Positions 1,772 through 29,284 of a DNA stretch of 50,314 bases are shown here, in pieces. Source of the DNA: Synergistaceae bacterium (GTDB lineage Bacteria > Synergistota > Synergistia > Synergistales > Aminobacteriaceae); the NCBI GenBank assembly GCA_017444345.1, contig JAFSWW010000092.1, positions 1 to 50,314 of the forward strand. Reading direction: 5' to 3'. The notes below the pieces were generated by a model. It did no database searches. It was not told where the DNA came from and saw nothing but the letters and a program-made list of their open reading frames with translations. The first letter of the stretch is position 1; every line of letters starts with the position of its first letter. Both the position numbers and the translations under genes were made by a program.

Positions 1772-2756
1772 AGACTCAGGCGTTGACGTTACAGCAGGTT
1801 ATGAGTCAGTAAAATTAATGCGCTCCCACGTTGAACGCACGAAAATTGAAGGGGTTTTCTCTGATTTAGGAGGATTCGGGGGGATGTTCGCACTTCCTGA
1901 AGGACTCAAGAATCCCATTTTAGTGAGCGGCACAGACGGAGTCGGGACAAAATTAAAAATTGCCTTTGCACTCGATAAACATGACTCAATCGGGATTGAC
2001 TGCGTTGCTATGTGCGTTAATGATGTGTTATGTTCGGGAGCCAAGCCGTTATTTTTTCTTGATTATATAGCTGTAGGCAAAAATTATCCGGAAAAAGTTG
2101 CGCAAATTGTCTCAGGTGTTGCAGAAGGCTGCGTGCAGGCAAATTGTGCGTTAATAGGCGGAGAGACTGCGGAAATGCCGGGATTTTACCCAGTTAATGA
2201 ATATGATTTAGCCGGTTTTGCTGTCGGAGTAGTTGAGCGCGAAAAGATTTTGAATCCTTCAAACGTGAAACAAGGCGATATTATTATTGCTCTGCCTTCA
2301 ACTGGTGTGCATTCTAATGGATTCTCACTTGTAAGAAGAATTTTAGCGGAACATGATTTCAAGCAATATATTAACGAGTTCGCTAAGAGTCTGGGTGAAG
2401 AGTTATTAACTCCTACAAAAATTTATGTCCGTGAAGTGTTGCCGGTTATCGATAAAATAAAATCAATCGCTCATATAACGGGCGGCGGCTTTTATGAGAA
2501 TATCCCCCGGGCGTTCGGTGAAGGACTCGCGGCAAAAATCGAACTCTCAAAAATTAAGACTCTCCCTGTATTTGACTATATTATGAAGGCCGGAAATATC
2601 GAGCTTGACGAAATGTATCACGTTTTTAATATGGGCGTGGGAATGATTTTAATAATTTCGCCTGAAAATGTTGACGGGATTCTAAAAAATTTAAACGAGT
2701 CATATATAATCGGAGAAATAATTAATAACGAAAATGGAGGCGTAATTTTATGGTGA
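1746..2756 (+). CDS. purM: Phosphoribosylformylglycinamidine cyclo-ligase (AIR synthetase)
   Basis: PurM closes the imidazole ring, turning FGAM and ATP into AIR. The 336-residue length is typical. Family signatures are the N-terminal YKDSGVD (8-14), the ATP-binding SGTDGVGTK (61-69), the [12 protein letters not shown] segment and the [11 protein letters not shown] loop. The start chosen places YKDSGVD near the N-terminus as in homologues; it lies inside the end of purE, so translation is coupled. Its own end overlaps the start of the purN fusion gene by 7 bases. Nothing in the sequence looks damaged. Confidence 0.97.
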
Positions 2757-4000
2757 AAATTTCCGTGCTTGTCTCAGGAGGCGGAACGAATTTACAGGCC
2801 CTAATTGACTCGCAGAATAACGGGATAATTAAATCGGGTCAAATTGTGCAGGTTATCTCAAGCAATGATAAAGCATTTGCACTCGAACGCGCTAAACGTG
2901 CAAATATTCCCAGTGAAGTAGTGAGCTTGAAGGAGTCGGGCGAAAATTTTGAGTCAAGATTGTTAGACTCGCTTAAAAAATTTAGTCCTGATTTAATCGT
3001 CTTGGCCGGATTCATGCATATTTTAAGCAAAAATTTTATTGAATCCTGTAACGCAAAAATTATAAATATTCACCCGTCATTAATTCCTGCGTTTTGCGGC
3101 AAAGGCTTTTACGGTCTTCACGTTCATGAAGCTGTGTTGAATTCGGGCGCAAAAGTTACCGGAGCTACTGTTCATTATGTGAATGAGATTCCCGACGGAG
3201 GGCAGATTATAGCGCAGAAAGCAATAAATATTCTCCCTGATGATACACCGGAAAAATTACAGCGCAGAGTCATGGAATTTGCGGAATGGGTTATTTTGCC
3301 GCGTGCTGTTGAAGAAGTTTGCAGGAAAATACAGCCGAAAATTTTTGAGCCTTGTATGAAATATCCCGGCCGGGGAATTATAACGGGAATGACTGAGTCC
3401 GGACAAATTGCGCTCGCTTATTTCATTATGGGCCGCAGTCAGTCAAGCAAGTCAAGAATCTTTGCTAAATCTGGCGATGATTTAATTATTAAGCTCGTGA
3501 ATATAAAGCAGGATTTTGACAGTTCGTTAATTCTTTATTCGCCGCTTAGAGTTCACGGAGAAAATATTATAGTAACTAACGGGGATCAGACTGACACGAT
3601 TTATAATTTTTTGAACGAGTCAAAAACTTTTGAGCAGGCTTTGAGGACTCGCGAATATGAACCGGACGCACCCCACTATACGCCCAGAATCAGCGCGATT
3701 ATTAACAAAGAAGGCTACACACAAAGCATTCTTAAACGTTCAGGGCGATTCTTTTTCGAGTATGAATTTAAAGCAGGAACAGGTCATTTAATTCACACTT
3801 ATGATCATGACGTTATGAGGGATAAAATTTTGCCTTCATTCAGTGGCGAACCTAGAGAAGTAAAAATTTGCGATGATATAAATTTATTTGCTGATTCACT
3901 ATGGGCGGAACTCAGCGAAGATTATAGAGTCGCGCTTTATGTGAGATTTTATGAGCCTGATTTATCGAGCTATACCGACAAATTATTTAATACACTGTGA
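2750..4000 (+). CDS. purN: GAR transformylase (PurN) fused to PurO-type IMP cyclohydrolase
   Basis: The 416-residue protein has two parts. Residues 1-190 are Pur[11 protein letters not shown] near the start, catalytic Asn106 and His108 in NIHPSLIP, and Asp149 in the IPDGG loop, so transfer of formyl from 10-formyl-THF to GAR should work. From residue 203 to the end the sequence ([40 protein letters not shown]) reads as the IMP cyclohydrolase family of archaeal PurO, also found as a stand-alone bacterial protein. Together with the next gene, an AICAR transformylase lacking its own cyclohydrolase domain, this would complete IMP synthesis. It overlaps purM by 7 bases. The fusion joins two non-consecutive steps. 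Confidence 0.93.
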
Positions 4001-4088
4001 TAATTTGCATTCACGTAAAAAATTTTGCGGCATTTATTCGAGTCTGTAAAATATAACACGCTATATATATTAAAGGAGTGATTTATTC

Positions 4089-5225
4089 ATGAACGAGTAC
4101 AAATTAAAATATGGCTGTAATCCCGATCAAAGCCCAGCAAGAATCTTCATGAGAAATAATCAGGATTTACCGCTTGAGATTCTCAACGGCCGGCCGGGCT
4201 ATATAAATTTTCTTGACGCTTTGAATTCATGGCAGTTAGTGAAGGAATTACGCAAAAATTTAAATCTTCCTGCTGCTGCGTCATTCAAGCATGTGAGTCC
4301 GGCGGGTGCTGCTTTAGGTCTTCCCTTAAATGACAATGAGCGCAAATTATTCTTTGTTGACGAGAAATTAAATATAAATGACTCGTTACTTGCTTGTGCT
4401 TATGCAAGGGCGCGCGGGACTGACAGGCTTTCTTCTTTCGGGGACTGGGTAGCACTTAGTGATAAATGCGACAAGATTACAGCTGAATATATACGCCGTG
4501 AAGTTTCGGATGGAGTCATTGCCCCTGATTATGAGCCTGAAGCACTGGAAATCTTGAAATCTAAGCGCAAAGGAAATTATGCCGTTGTCAAGATTGACTC
4601 AAATTATGAGCCTGAAAATTTAGAGACCCGCGACGTTTTCGGGATAACTTTTGAGCAGTCGAGAAGCACCGCCCCCGTTTGTGAATTATCAAAATTTGAC
4701 TCTCTTGTTACTGTCTCGCAGATAATGCCGGAGTCCGCAAAACGTGATTTAATTCTTGCGCTGATAACTCTTAAATATACTCAGTCTAATTCAGTCTGTG
4801 TTACTAAAAACGGGCAGACACTGGGAGTCGGAGCTGGTCAGCAATCAAGACTTCATTGTGTAAAACTTGCATGTGATAAGGCAGATTTAAGAATTCTACG
4901 CGAACACCCGAAAATTTTAGATTTAGAATTTAATTCAAAACTTGGCCGGCCTGAACGAGACAACGCAATTAATGTAATTCTCACGACAAACAGCGGCATT
5001 ATTTCAGATTCCGAGCGTAAAGAATGGCTTGCAAGTAATTCCGGCGCGTCACTTGGCAGTGATGCATTCTTCCCGTTCGCTGATAATATAGAACGTGCTT
5101 ATTTGAGCGGCGTTAAATTTATTGCACAGCCGGGCGGATCTATTCGTGATGATTTAGTGATTAAGGCCTGCGACGATCATAATATTTCAATGGTAATGAC
5201 GGGTAAAAGATTATTCCATCATTAA
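4089..5225 (+). CDS. purH: Stand-alone AICAR formyltransferase (PurH C-terminal type)
   Basis: This 378-residue protein matches only the AICAR transformylase half of PurH. It has the catalytic Lys67-His68 in SFKHVSPAGAALG, the SFGDWVALSD segment and the C-terminal FIAQPGGSIRDD motif. The N-terminal MGS-like IMP cyclohydrolase domain of ordinary bifunctional PurH is absent; the PurO domain of the preceding gene can supply that activity. A clear ribosome-binding site, AAAGGAGTG, precedes the ATG. The 88-base gap upstream contains AT-rich promoter-like sequence (TATATATAT). A hairpin/G4 repeat lies downstream. Confidence 0.94.
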   Translation: MNEYKLKYGCNPDQSPARIFMRNNQDLPLEILNGRPGYINFLDALNSWQLVKELRKNLNLPAAASFKHVSPAGAALGLPLNDNERKLFFVDEKLNINDSLLACAYARARGTDRLSSFGDWVALSDKCDKITAEYIRREVSDGVIAPDYEPEALEILKSKRKGNYAVVKIDSNYEPENLETRDVFGITFEQSRSTAPVCELSKFDSLVTVSQIMPESAKRDLILALITLKYTQSNSVCVTKNGQTLGVGAGQQSRLHCVKLACDKADLRILREHPKILDLEFNSKLGRPERDNAINVILTTNSGIISDSERKEWLASNSGASLGSDAFFPFADNIERAYLSGVKFIAQPGGSIRDDLVIKACDDHNISMVMTGKRLFHH

Positions 5226-5255
5226 TATATATAGCAGCAAAAAATTTTTCCTAAT

Positions 5256-5302
5256 ATTCTACTCCCACCCGCCCACCCTGCTACTTCGTAGCAGAGTAGA
5301 AT
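5256..5302. repeat. Hairpin element with G-quadruplex loop, copy 1
   Basis: A 9-base outer inverted repeat (ATTCTACTC / GAGTAGAAT) encloses CCCACCCGCCCACCC (5264-5278) and an inner hairpin TGCTAC-TTC-GTAGCA (5279-5293). The complement of the C-rich part is GGGTGGGCGGGTGGG, four G3 runs with one-base loops. The same core recurs at 13690-13704 and 29256-29270 with different stems. Here it lies between two rightward genes and has no T-run, so it is not an ordinary intrinsic terminator. Confidence 0.85.
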
Positions 5303-5370
5303 AGGAGAAAAGCAAAATCTGTAATCACGCTATATTTATTATTTATTTATATAGAAGGGAGCAAATTTTT

Positions 5371-11327: not shown

Positions 11328-11358
11328 TTGAATAATACCCCCCCCCCCCCCCTATAAT
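11328..11358 (+). promoter_or_regulatory. Candidate phase-variable promoter with a C15 spacer
   Basis: A TTGAAT (-35-like, 11328-11333) and a perfect TATAAT (-10, 11353-11358) are separated by 19 bases, 15 of which are an unbroken run of C (11338-11352) abutting the -10 box. Spacer length sets sigma70 promoter strength, with 17 the best, so slippage of this tract would change expression of the downstream small-protein, YkgJ, radical SAM and precursor genes. It lies just past a terminator, as expected for the first promoter of a new operon. Confidence 0.65.
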
Positions 11359-11393: not shown

Positions 11394-11561
11394 ATGTCAA
11401 CAGTAAAATATCAAAGTGTCTGCATTTATTGCGGTAAGGGCGGCTCTTCAACATCAATAAGCGAGAGTCTTGGTCAGCCCCATTCAAATCCTCCCAGTAT
11501 AGGCGGCAGATGTCCATCAAGTCCGGACGGCAAGCATAAACCTAAATGGGTTAAAATTTAG
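11394..11561 (+). CDS. Small Cys-rich (zinc-ribbon-like) protein, 55 residues
   Basis: A short frame, ATG 11394 to TAG 11559-11561, encodes 55 residues with a CIYCGKGG knuckle at 10-17, then GGRCP and SPDGKHKPKW near the C-terminus. A CxxC plus a later Cys and His suggests a bound metal. I recall similar small proteins with the GxRCxxSPDGKH ending but no assigned function. It is the first gene after the C15 promoter and is 12 bases ahead of the YkgJ gene, whose start has no ribosome-binding site of its own, so coupling is likely. Its own ribosome-binding site is weak (AAAGTGG). Confidence 0.7.
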   Translation: MSTVKYQSVCIYCGKGGSSTSISESLGQPHSNPPSIGGRCPSSPDGKHKPKWVKI

Positions 11562-13642: not shown

Positions 13643-13681
13643 ATTTAGGGAGTTATTCATGTAATATAAATTTTACGCATT

Positions 13682-13728
13682 ATTCTACTCCCACCCGCCC
13701 ACCCGACTGCTACGCAGCCGAGTAGAAT
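13682..13728. repeat. Hairpin element with G-quadruplex loop, copy 2
   Basis: Outer stem ATTCTACTC / GAGTAGAAT is identical to copy 1; the core CCCACCCGCCCACCC is at 13690-13704; the inner hairpin differs (CTGC-TAC-GCAG). It lies between the peptide locus terminator and the purL ribosome-binding site, so it may be transcribed in the purL leader. Confidence 0.85.
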
Positions 13729-13756
13729 AGGGAATTTTTTTAAGGAGGTCATTACT

Positions 13757-16700
13757 CTGGTACATAGAATTTATACGGAACGCAAGGACTCAAATAATAT
13801 CGAGTCATTAACTCTATTGAACGAGATAAAAATTTTATCAGGCAATGAGAATATTTCACAAGTAAGAATCTTAAACCGTTATGATATTCAGGGCTTGAGC
13901 GATTCGGAATTAGACTCGTGTAAAAATTTGATTTTCTCTGAGCCCTTCACTGATAATATTATAGAAAATTTGCCCGGTGATTCTAATAAAATTTTAGCAG
14001 TTGAATATTTACCCGGACAATACGATCAACGAGCCGACTCAGCTGAACAATGCGCGGGACTCTTGCTGGGATTCAGGCCTGTTATTAAGACTGCGAGAAT
14101 ATATTTATTTTACGGGGAATTAAATAATTTTGACGCTGTCAAGAAATTTCTAATAAACCCGGTCGAATCTCGTGAAGCACAATTAAACGAATATGACTCA
14201 CTTGATTTAAATTATTCGCGCCCTGATGACGTTAAAATTATCGATGATCTATTAAGCACTAAGGGACTCGCTATGAGCCGGGAAGATTTAGAATGCTGCA
14301 AAAAATATTTTGACTCGGAAAACCGCAAGCCCACCGCCGCAGAAATTAAAGTCTTAGATACTTACTGGTCAGATCACTGCAGGCACACTACTTTTTTGAC
14401 GCATATAAACTCGGCAGAAATTCTTGATAATAGCGTGTCTAACATGTTCGCAAAATATTTAGAGATCCGCAAAGAATTAAATTACAGCCCCGATAAGCCG
14501 GTTACTTTAATGGACATAGCAACAATAGGAGCAAAATTTTTGAAGTCCCGCGGGTTGTTGCCTGACTTGGTAGACTCTGAAGAAAATAACGCCTGCACTG
14601 TGAAAATAAATATTAATAATGAGTCATGGCTTTTGTTATTCAAGAATGAAACTCACAATCACCCGACTGAAATAGAACCGTTCGGAGGTGCTGCGACTTG
14701 TATAGGCGGGGCAATTCGTGATCCATTATCGGGACGCGCATATGTCTATCAGGCAATGAGAATCACAGGAGCTGCTGACCCGTTTAAAGCAACTATGCCG
14801 GGCAAATTACCACAGCGGGCAATTATTACGAAATCTGCGGCCGGTTACAGCTCATACGGGAATCAAATCGGGATTCCCACGGGACTAGTCGACGAAATTT
14901 ATCACGAGGGCTATAGAGCTAAGAGACTCGAAGTCGGAGCAGTTCTCGCGTCAGTTCCTGAAAAAAATGTGATTCGTGAAAGGCCGGAGTCGGGCGACTA
15001 TGTTTTATTACTCGGCGGCAAAACAGGACGGGACGGAATCGGCGGCGCAACCGGGTCAAGCGTATCACACAGTTCTATATCTCTTGAGACTTGCGGGGCT
15101 GAAGTCCAAAAAGGTAACGCACCTGAAGAAAGAAAGCTGCAAAGATTATTCAGGAATCCGGAATTTACGAGACTAATAAAACGCTGTAACGATTTCGGGG
15201 CGGGCGGAGTAAGTGTCGCAGTAGGTGAATTAGCAGACGGGCTCGATATAGATTTAGACTCAGTTCCGTTAAAATATGCAGGTCTCGACGGTACAGAAAT
15301 TGCAGTTAGTGAATCTCAAGAACGCATGGCCGTTGTAGTCAGTGAAAGAAATATAGAACGGGTAAAAAATTTAGCTCTGTCTGAAGATGTTCAGGCAAGT
15401 ATTATAGCTCGTGTGAATAATTCAGGCAGTATGCGAATGACTTGGCGGGGTCATGAAATAGTGAATTTATCGCGCGAATTCATAAACTCAAGCGGTGCAG
15501 AAAGAAATATAAACGTGAAAGTCAATCAGCCTGTAATAAAAACTTGTGAGAATGATTATAAAACTTTTCAAGATAAATTATTTGCTATTCTCAAAGATTT
15601 AAACGTGTGCTCTAAACAAGGACTCTCAGAAATATTTGACTCAACGGTCGGGGCACACTCGTTATTAATGCCGTTCGGGGGCAAATTTCAGAAAACGCCG
15701 GCTCAAGCAATGGCAGCAGAAATTTTTACAGGTTCGCAAATATGTTCGCTGATGTCATACGGATTTGACCCGTTTATTAGCGAATCTTCACCGTTCAGAG
15801 GCGCATATATAGCAGTTCTTGACTCGTTATGTAAAATCATAGCTTCAGGGGGGAATCTAAAACATTGCTGGCTGACTCTACAGGAATATTTCGGCAAGCC
15901 CGGCTATAATCCCGAAAAATGGGGACTTCCTTTTGCGGCATTGCTGGGAGCTTTGAGGGCTCAATTAGATTTTAACGTTGCTGCAATAGGCGGTAAGGAC
16001 TCAATGAGCGGCTCATTTGTTGATGATACGGGCAAAAATTACGATGTCCCGCCGACTCTTATTTCGTTTTGTGTGTGTGCTGCTGAAGTCGATAAAATTA
16101 TTTCTCCTGAATTCAAGCGTGCAGGCTCAAACGTTTATATTTTGTCGCCCGATTATGACTCTGATAACTTGCCGACGCCTGACTCAATGAAAAATTTATT
16201 TGCTTTGATTCAAGAGTTAAACGCGAATCATAAAATTTTATCGTGCTACGTGCCTACATTCGGGGGGATTCACGCAGCAATATTTAAAATGTGTCTAGGC
16301 AATAATTTAGGCTTTGAATTCGAGAATAATAATTTATTAGATGACTCTAAACGCTGTAAATTTATAATCGAACTTGCTGACGAGAACGAGAATCTTTGCA
16401 GACTTGGCCGGGTTATTGAGACTCCGGAGATAATTTGCGATAATCAACGAGTGAATTTAAACGATGCTGCTAAAATTTATAACTCAACGCTTGAAAATAT
16501 CTTCCCGACCGAAATAAATGACTCGTCAGTGATTCCTGATTTCGAGATAAATTCAGATATTCCCAGAGTCTTTTACTCGCATGAATCAAAATCTAATCCG
16601 AAATTTTTGATTCCGGTATTTAACGGCACTAACTGCGAATATGAGACAGCAAACGCAATTAATAACGCGGGAGGGAACGCGAAAATTTTTGTCGTGAAGA

Positions 16701-23898: not shown

Positions 23899-24255
23899 AG
23901 TTATAAATTACCTCCTTGAATATATATTAATAAATCGTGTAGTAATTCTAGCAAGAAAATTTTACACATGCGAGGGATAAATTACGGGCGGGCAGATATA
24001 ACGGAAAATTTTTACACGAACGAGCGAGAAATGTCGGGGGGCGGGCGGGCGGGAACTACTCAATATTTACGAGCGACTCATTAATGACCGGTGCGGGCGA
24101 ATACAGCGAAAAATTTTTTACACATATGAGGGCGGGCGGGCAGGTGCTGATTAATATAGCGGGCTATAAAATTTTTTGTTACGTCATGAATTCTGAAAAA
24201 ATTTGCTTGAACGTGTAAAATTTATACAAATATTTTTGCGGGAAGGTCATAAAAC
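23899..24255. other. G-rich intergenic region with a canonical G4 motif
   Basis: No gene fits in this 357-base gap between two divergent genes. It contains G6-C-G3-C-G3-C-G3 at 24036-24053, a textbook G-quadruplex sequence, plus GGGCGGGC at about 23980 and GGGCGGGCGGGC at about 24131. These alternate with three AAATTTTnACAC units spaced roughly 60-100 bases apart. A TTGCTT/TACAAA pair with a 16-base spacer just upstream of 24256 may be the citG-like promoter. Confidence 0.6.
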
Positions 24256-29241: not shown

Positions 29242-29284
29242 TCCGCCGCCTCACTCCCACCCGCCCACCCCGCTCGGCGGCGGA
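29242..29284 (-). terminator. Hairpin/G4 repeat copy 3, also a leftward terminator
   Basis: TCCGCCGCC (29242-29250) pairs perfectly with GGCGGCGGA (29276-29284); the loop holds the shared CCCACCCGCCCACCC (29256-29270). On the minus strand the hairpin is followed by T7, so it can end transcription of the 29292-29828 gene. The stem differs from copies 1 and 2, and only the loop core is conserved. Confidence 0.85.

Follow-up and report, generated by a model that had tools for sequence, protein, structure and literature searches.

Hairpin elements bearing a four-tract G-quadruplex motif are dispersed through the genomes of some rumen Synergistaceae

Results

The window, the whole 50,314-nt stretch of DNA analysed here, is one contig of a Synergistaceae genome (G000; 2.33 Mb, 96% complete, 141 contigs) and holds four short hairpin elements that each carry a G-quadruplex (G4) motif. 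Element 1 (class A; positions 5255–5303, − strand) has an outer stem, TATTCTACT(C)/GAGTAGAATA, a G4 core reading GGGTGGGCGGGTGGG on the − strand (5264–5278) and an inner hairpin (5279–5293; TGCTAC GAA GTAGCA on the − strand) that covaries across copies. Its folded strand is the − strand, for which the minimum free energy (MFE) structure calculated with G4 energies combines a G4 with a hairpin (predicted −49.5 kcal/mol, compared with −24.5 kcal/mol without these energies). Element 2, also class A (13681–13729, − strand), lies upstream of the purL Shine–Dalgarno sequence (13742–13748); its core (13690–13704, − strand) matches the same 15-mer, and its inner hairpin (13705–13719; GGCTGC GTA GCAGTC on the − strand) contains a G.U pair that exists on the − strand only. 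Element 3 (class B; 29243–29283, − strand) sits between convergent genes and consists of a stem, CCGCCGCC/GGCGGCGG, around a further 15-mer match (29256–29270, − strand), with a tandem G.A (GA/GA) adjoining the G4 on the − strand; more copies of this type occur elsewhere in G000.

The first-pass annotation had placed these three copies correctly, in coordinates, orientation and enclosure by a stem, but missed both the second, inner hairpin between core and 3′ stem arm in copies 1 and 2 and a fourth element with its G-rich strand on +. This element 4 (24029–24068, + strand) reads AAATGTCGGG-GGGCGGGCGGGCGGG-AACTACTCAATATTT, with GGGCGGGCGGGCGGG as its G4 core on the + strand (24039–24053), and belongs to the same family as loci L107 and L120. 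The shared orientation reported earlier applies to the first three window copies only, and genome-wide both orientations relative to genes are found. The divergent intergenic region around element 4 (23984–24144) contains three G-rich units, the intact G4 and two decayed ones on the + strand, ACGGGCGGGCAGA (23984–23996) and GGGCGGGCGGGCAGG (24130–24144), which could be an array of the same elements.

The surrounding genes have features of their own. purL apparently starts with CTG (13757), 8 nt past AAGGAGG (window 13742–13767); the matching codon in other species' orthologues is ATG or TTG. At 2750–5222 a formyltransferase N-domain is fused to an IMP cyclohydrolase-like (PurO-type) domain. 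The next protein has its sole match, beginning at its position 77, in the AICARFT/IMPCHase family, and purine genes are not usually arranged in this way. Ahead of a small ORF at 11394, a 15-C homopolymer occupies the spacer of a promoter-like TTGAAT..TATAAT sequence (11328–11358) and resembles a phase-variable promoter tract; C15 tracts also occur on contigs C17, C18, C42 and C91 of G000.

Copies of the core are scattered over the genome in great excess, as the earlier reading of a dispersed family implied. The 15-mer CCCACCCGCCCACCC has 30 exact copies in the whole 2.33 Mb of G000, and about 60 distinct sites, overlapping registers and poly-C left out, fit the pattern C3N C3N C3N C3, against 0.026 expected from base composition. 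The window alone has seven matches to the 15-mer at up to three mismatches, where shuffles give 0.23 on average and 0/100 reached seven. By their coordinates, 16 of the 30 exact copies are no more than about 200 bases from where a contig ends, so the true copy number in G000 is probably higher than counted. The quadruplex-tagged hairpins are real and far from chance, and the excess over shuffled controls that the first-pass annotation had set as a check holds.

The comparison set comprised 43 genomes of the genus (rumen Synergistaceae) and 38 genomes from 19 other genera of the family, and the elements found in it, about 45–100 bp in size, fall into several designs. On the G-rich strand, class A runs from TATTCTACTC through a 6-bp inner hairpin and the G4 core to AGTAGAATA. 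In classes B and C few unpaired bases separate the G4 from the GC-rich stem that encloses it, and the other G000 families (class D) have weaker stems. The class A-like design recurs in G005 with wholly different letters (TATTTACC..GGTAAATA), G008 stems follow GCGCCC-GAA-GCTC..GAGC-GA-GGGCGC and relatives, and in G009, G018 and G020 the G4 is followed directly by an imperfect hairpin. The tag is thus common to all families and the stems are largely species-specific, with class B common to G000 and G006. On inspection, the stem flanks have no GTAG or CGTC in common across families, and the shared feature is G3N G3N G3N G3; where class A contains GTAG it lies within the stem, and it is missing there in G005, G006 and G008.

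Two further arrangements were seen. At the class D loci L111, L119, L127 and others, direct repeats of the TGCGGCGGGGAATAAATTA type flank the G4 on both sides, possibly as a composite unit. In locus L028 (core at 119–133) class B stem sequence is joined with a flank (GATTTTGCTTTT) that resembles class A, and this hybrid suggests modular exchange between families.

Stem covariation, which the first-pass annotation proposed as a check, is present among the copies. The class A inner hairpin scores 0.200, compared with 0.068 ± 0.019 in shuffled alignments (0/500 shuffles reached it) and 0–0.023 in slid controls. Its non-Watson–Crick pairs are G.U on the G-rich strand, and A.C on the opposite strand. 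The simple stems of G000, G006, G008, G017 and G021 have GA/GA or GAA/GA on the G-rich strand in 26 of 34 internal loops, tandem G.A pairs that would read T.C on the C-rich strand. With the core masked, the G-rich strand folds better in 111/146 elements, G006 alone being about even, and ViennaRNA with G4 energies predicts a G4 in all 146 G-strand MFE structures; in 131 of these, 5 bp or more enclose it. Because the G.U pairs of class A and the tandem G.A are meaningful on the G-rich strand only, the selected object is, as judged from this pairing, the G-rich strand in its folded form, a hairpin with a G-quadruplex inside; in the cell a G4 would presumably form. The choice of the G-rich strand is equally valid for single-stranded DNA and for RNA.

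Searching hairpins by stem alone leaves the core unbiased. In G000 and G006 the GCCGCC..GGCGGC stem retrieved 41 hairpins whose core region has four tracts, two of these with one C changed, plus one three-tract hairpin, and zero hairpins with an unrelated loop. Within these hairpins, 2/492 C-run positions are off consensus, compared with 19/123 spacer positions (Fisher p=1e-5 in G000 and p=1e-7 in G006, values that serve as guides because the copies are not independent), and a stem search for class A found intact cores in 13/13. Four tracts are therefore kept while the loops vary, which supports selection of the core as a G4-type motif and bears out the first-pass view that the loop sequence itself is selected; the "constant core" described there applies to the C-runs, while the spacers vary between A and G. 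In genomes near G000 the spacers are nearly always A/G on the C-rich strand, that is, T/C on the G-rich strand. Parallel G4s are more stable with pyrimidine one-nucleotide loops.

We placed 150 elements relative to genes with a crude ORF caller, and most are intergenic. In simple hairpins the median core-to-stop distance is 22 nt on the C-sense side (mostly 14–27 nt), and their gene contexts (n=53) are convergent in 23, '++' in 16, '--' in 6 and '-+' in 8; as background, the window has 2 convergent regions among 18 intergenic regions of at least 50 bp, a small sample. The class A type lies mostly 33–49 nt (median 39 nt) past the stop of a G-sense gene, in '--' context in 12/22 compared with 4 in '++'. 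From core position and stem length, the stem would begin roughly 10–15 nt past the stop in both types. The simple type thus prefers C-sense genes and the class A type the opposite, which speaks for a DNA-level element. Elements show no consistent GC-skew or replication-strand bias (66/150, p=0.16), with G008 and G005 leaning opposite ways; that strand choice follows neither genes nor GC skew consistently is as expected for a DNA-level element. A T-run (at least 5 T of 8) follows 16/74 simple hairpins on the C-rich strand and 3/74 on the G-rich strand, and for the class A type 0/28 and 2/28, respectively. A GC-rich hairpin followed by a T-run, as in an intrinsic terminator, is therefore found in a minority of elements. 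The plain terminator suggested by the first-pass annotation is weakly supported: the position after stops agrees with it, but T-runs are rare and the gene orientation differs between the two types.

Distribution is patchy. The motif with A/G spacers occurs in 15/43 genomes of the genus, with at least five copies in 10, and in 3/38 genomes of other genera with one or two matches each; fragmented assemblies such as G030 (350 contigs) and G011 may undercount copies. The scatter of copy-rich genomes over a PurL tree equals that of shuffled labels, and well-supported branches force at least five changes. We then aligned the flanks of G000 loci to G030, the closest relative (about 90% DNA identity). 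G030 has empty sites at L022 (window element 1), L111, L025, L026 and probably L005, and remnants in the form of broken cores or half-hairpins at L004, L117 and L118; at L009 its contig ends inside the core. Upstream of purL (window element 2) G030 retains a decayed half-element and G006 has nothing. Where G000 has window element 1, G006 carries an oppositely oriented element of a different family, and at the L111 site G000, G008 and G009 have three different families. Orientation is flipped at L020/L060. The site of window element 3 is common to G006, and within the core only the middle spacer differs. Such conserved positions were set aside as proof of function, since coincidences are expected with 60–80 copies per genome and limited 3′ sites. 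As regards a MITE of a DDE transposon, which would have terminal inverted repeats and a target-site duplication of constant length, filled sites compared with the empty ones of G030 contain 80–110 bp of extra DNA with AT-rich, ambiguous edges and no clear target-site duplication.

A profile search for the Y1 transposase domain (Y1_Tnp, PF01797) gave no match in the copy-rich genomes G000, G006, G008, G017, G018, G020 and G021, and the same search found it in 15 other genomes, mostly copy-poor, and in E. coli. The TnpA_REP-type transposase that the first-pass annotation had offered as mobiliser finds no support in this distribution. Reverse transcriptase was rejected as a mobiliser as well, its presence not tracking the elements (none in G000, G006, G009 or G017). 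Genes between neighbouring or paired copies appeared housekeeping-like on inspection, with no candidate for a mobilising gene among them. Rfam models at gathering score gave no match within the window, plasmids gave none to element 1 plus its flanks, and viral contigs gave none to class A; 12 viral-contig matches to the class B pattern proved to be GC-rich sequence without a stem and were dismissed. G018 hairpins have GTTAAAC/GTTTAAC arms, whose order we take to be opposite to that of an attC-like fold.

Discussion

On balance, and with somewhat better than even confidence, we favour a superfamily of non-autonomous, REP-like, quadruplex-tagged intergenic repeats that is spread by a non-Y1 mobiliser. 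Its shared tag would be a four-tract G4 motif with one-nucleotide loops, G3Y G3Y G3Y G3, and its working form the folded G-rich strand, either a hairpin around the G4, to which class A adds a covarying inner hairpin and many simple-type elements a tandem G.A adjoining the quadruplex, or, as in G009, G018 and G020, a G4 with an imperfect hairpin directly after it. We propose that an enzyme recognises the G4–hairpin on single-stranded DNA or on its RNA and writes a copy elsewhere, and that the stems co-evolve with this enzyme as REPs do with TnpA_REP. Such an enzyme would be neither a Y1/RAYT protein nor one tied to reverse transcriptase. Copies would persist at the least harmful sites, just past stop codons, and there probably influence transcript ends too. 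Whether the elements amount to an undescribed bacterial mobile-repeat class, in which the G4 is the tag for a non-Y1 enzyme and is retained as species-specific stems turn over, is a more tentative matter, to which we give somewhat less than even weight.

The main rival, which we consider unlikely as a full account and which may hold in part for copies that are retained, takes the elements to be RNA 3′-end structures under selection, terminators or mRNA-protecting hairpins whose G4 or C-rich loop adds stability or binds a protein. The tight spacing from stop codons in both types fits such a function, as do the surplus of convergent contexts among simple hairpins over the window background, the G.U and tandem G.A pairs and the persistence of window element 3 at the orthologous G006 site. 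T-runs are nevertheless rare, and the simple type favours C-sense genes though pairing says that the G-rich strand folds, while the class A type favours the reverse. Some copies also lie in divergent regions or, as element 2, upstream of a Shine–Dalgarno sequence, and the empty sites in the sister species also count against this account. Those empty sites could be losses, and the G030 assembly is fragmented. Spread as mobile repeats must further be reconciled with the failure of the searches for Y1, reverse transcriptase and intervening genes to yield a mobilising gene, with ambiguous insertion edges, with tightly fixed distances to stop codons that RNA function would also explain and with G4 folding at the level of prediction.

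A dispersed signal under selection, read by a nucleoid, segregation or repair protein that binds the G4 or C-rich sequence, would account for a constant core with changing stems and genome-wide dispersal. We regard it as improbable: relative to GC skew the elements have no consistent strand bias, most of the 43 genomes of the genus have no elements, the sister species lost or never had many copies, and the core letters vary at the spacers. Classical REPs mobilised by RAYT/TnpA_REP (HUH Y1 transposase) are resembled in size, palindromy, intergenic placement, species-specific families and G.T pairs (PMC3733652), yet this reading is more improbable still, given copy-rich genomes without PF01797 in a search that detected it elsewhere, and a shared G4 in place of an unpaired GTAG or CGTC tag. 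The crowding of copies at contig ends is what repeats produce in short-read assemblies, but chance, base composition or assembly artefact as the source of the 15-mer copies has a probability close to nil in view of the composition-based expectation, the many copies deep within contigs with orthologous flanks and the stem covariation.

Much of the evidence for selection on bacterial G-quadruplexes is statistical. The elements described here offer a natural replicate: across about ten species and hundreds of copies whose stems are unrelated, the four G-tracts are kept, the loops have drifted, and pairing reveals the working strand. They extend the idea of the tagged palindrome, the REP, to a structural tag, and point to a reader, enzyme or RNA-binding protein, for a G4 that lies next to a hairpin. 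The decayed copies in G030 are a ready panel of natural mutants.

Several known systems share parts of this design. The Neisseria pilE G4 has a core of nearly identical design (G3T G3 .. G3T G3), but serves as a recombination signal at one locus and forms no dispersed family of hairpins. A literature search on quadruplexes with REP, RAYT, Synergistetes, MITE and terminator, conducted largely outside subscription papers and bioRxiv preprints, found no description of such elements. Intrastrand triplex repeats (PMC4666352) are likewise dispersed and of unusual DNA structure, but the stems here are by sequence not homopurine/homopyrimidine. The Xanthomonas and Nostoc GGGNATC-type repeats, G4-forming tandem heptamers of variable unit number (Rehm et al. 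2015, PMC4692102), are also dispersed bacterial G4 motifs, mostly intergenic, near stop codons and with a preference for four G-tracts. The abstract of that study describes no hairpin, whereas our elements are single dispersed units with one-nucleotide loops, a fixed four tracts and a covarying hairpin.

The closest parallel is with REPs. TnpA_REP/REP duos, in which a folded single strand is recognised via a conserved motif beside a hairpin and stems co-evolve with the enzyme (PMC8266576), provide an analogy for the proposed mechanism, but the copy-rich genomes here lack the Y1 transposase. REPs are GTAG- or CGTC-tagged, the CGTC type without a dedicated transposase, and lie downstream of coding regions, between tandem and convergent genes, with frequent G.T pairs (Di Nocera et al. 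2013, PMC3733652; a text that mentions neither quadruplex nor Synergist). Like them, our elements are short palindromes in many dispersed intergenic copies, with many species-specific families under one tag, and by size, placement and turnover they work like REPs. We do not file them as REPs because the two defining features were looked for and are absent, the unpaired GTAG/CGTC tag at one palindrome end and, in the seven copy-rich genomes, a RAYT gene (Y1 transposase) flanked by repeats. The REP tag is an unpaired tetranucleotide at the end of the palindrome, whereas the tag of these Synergistaceae elements is a 15-nt four-tract G4 motif, usually in the loop and adjoined by tandem G.A motifs.
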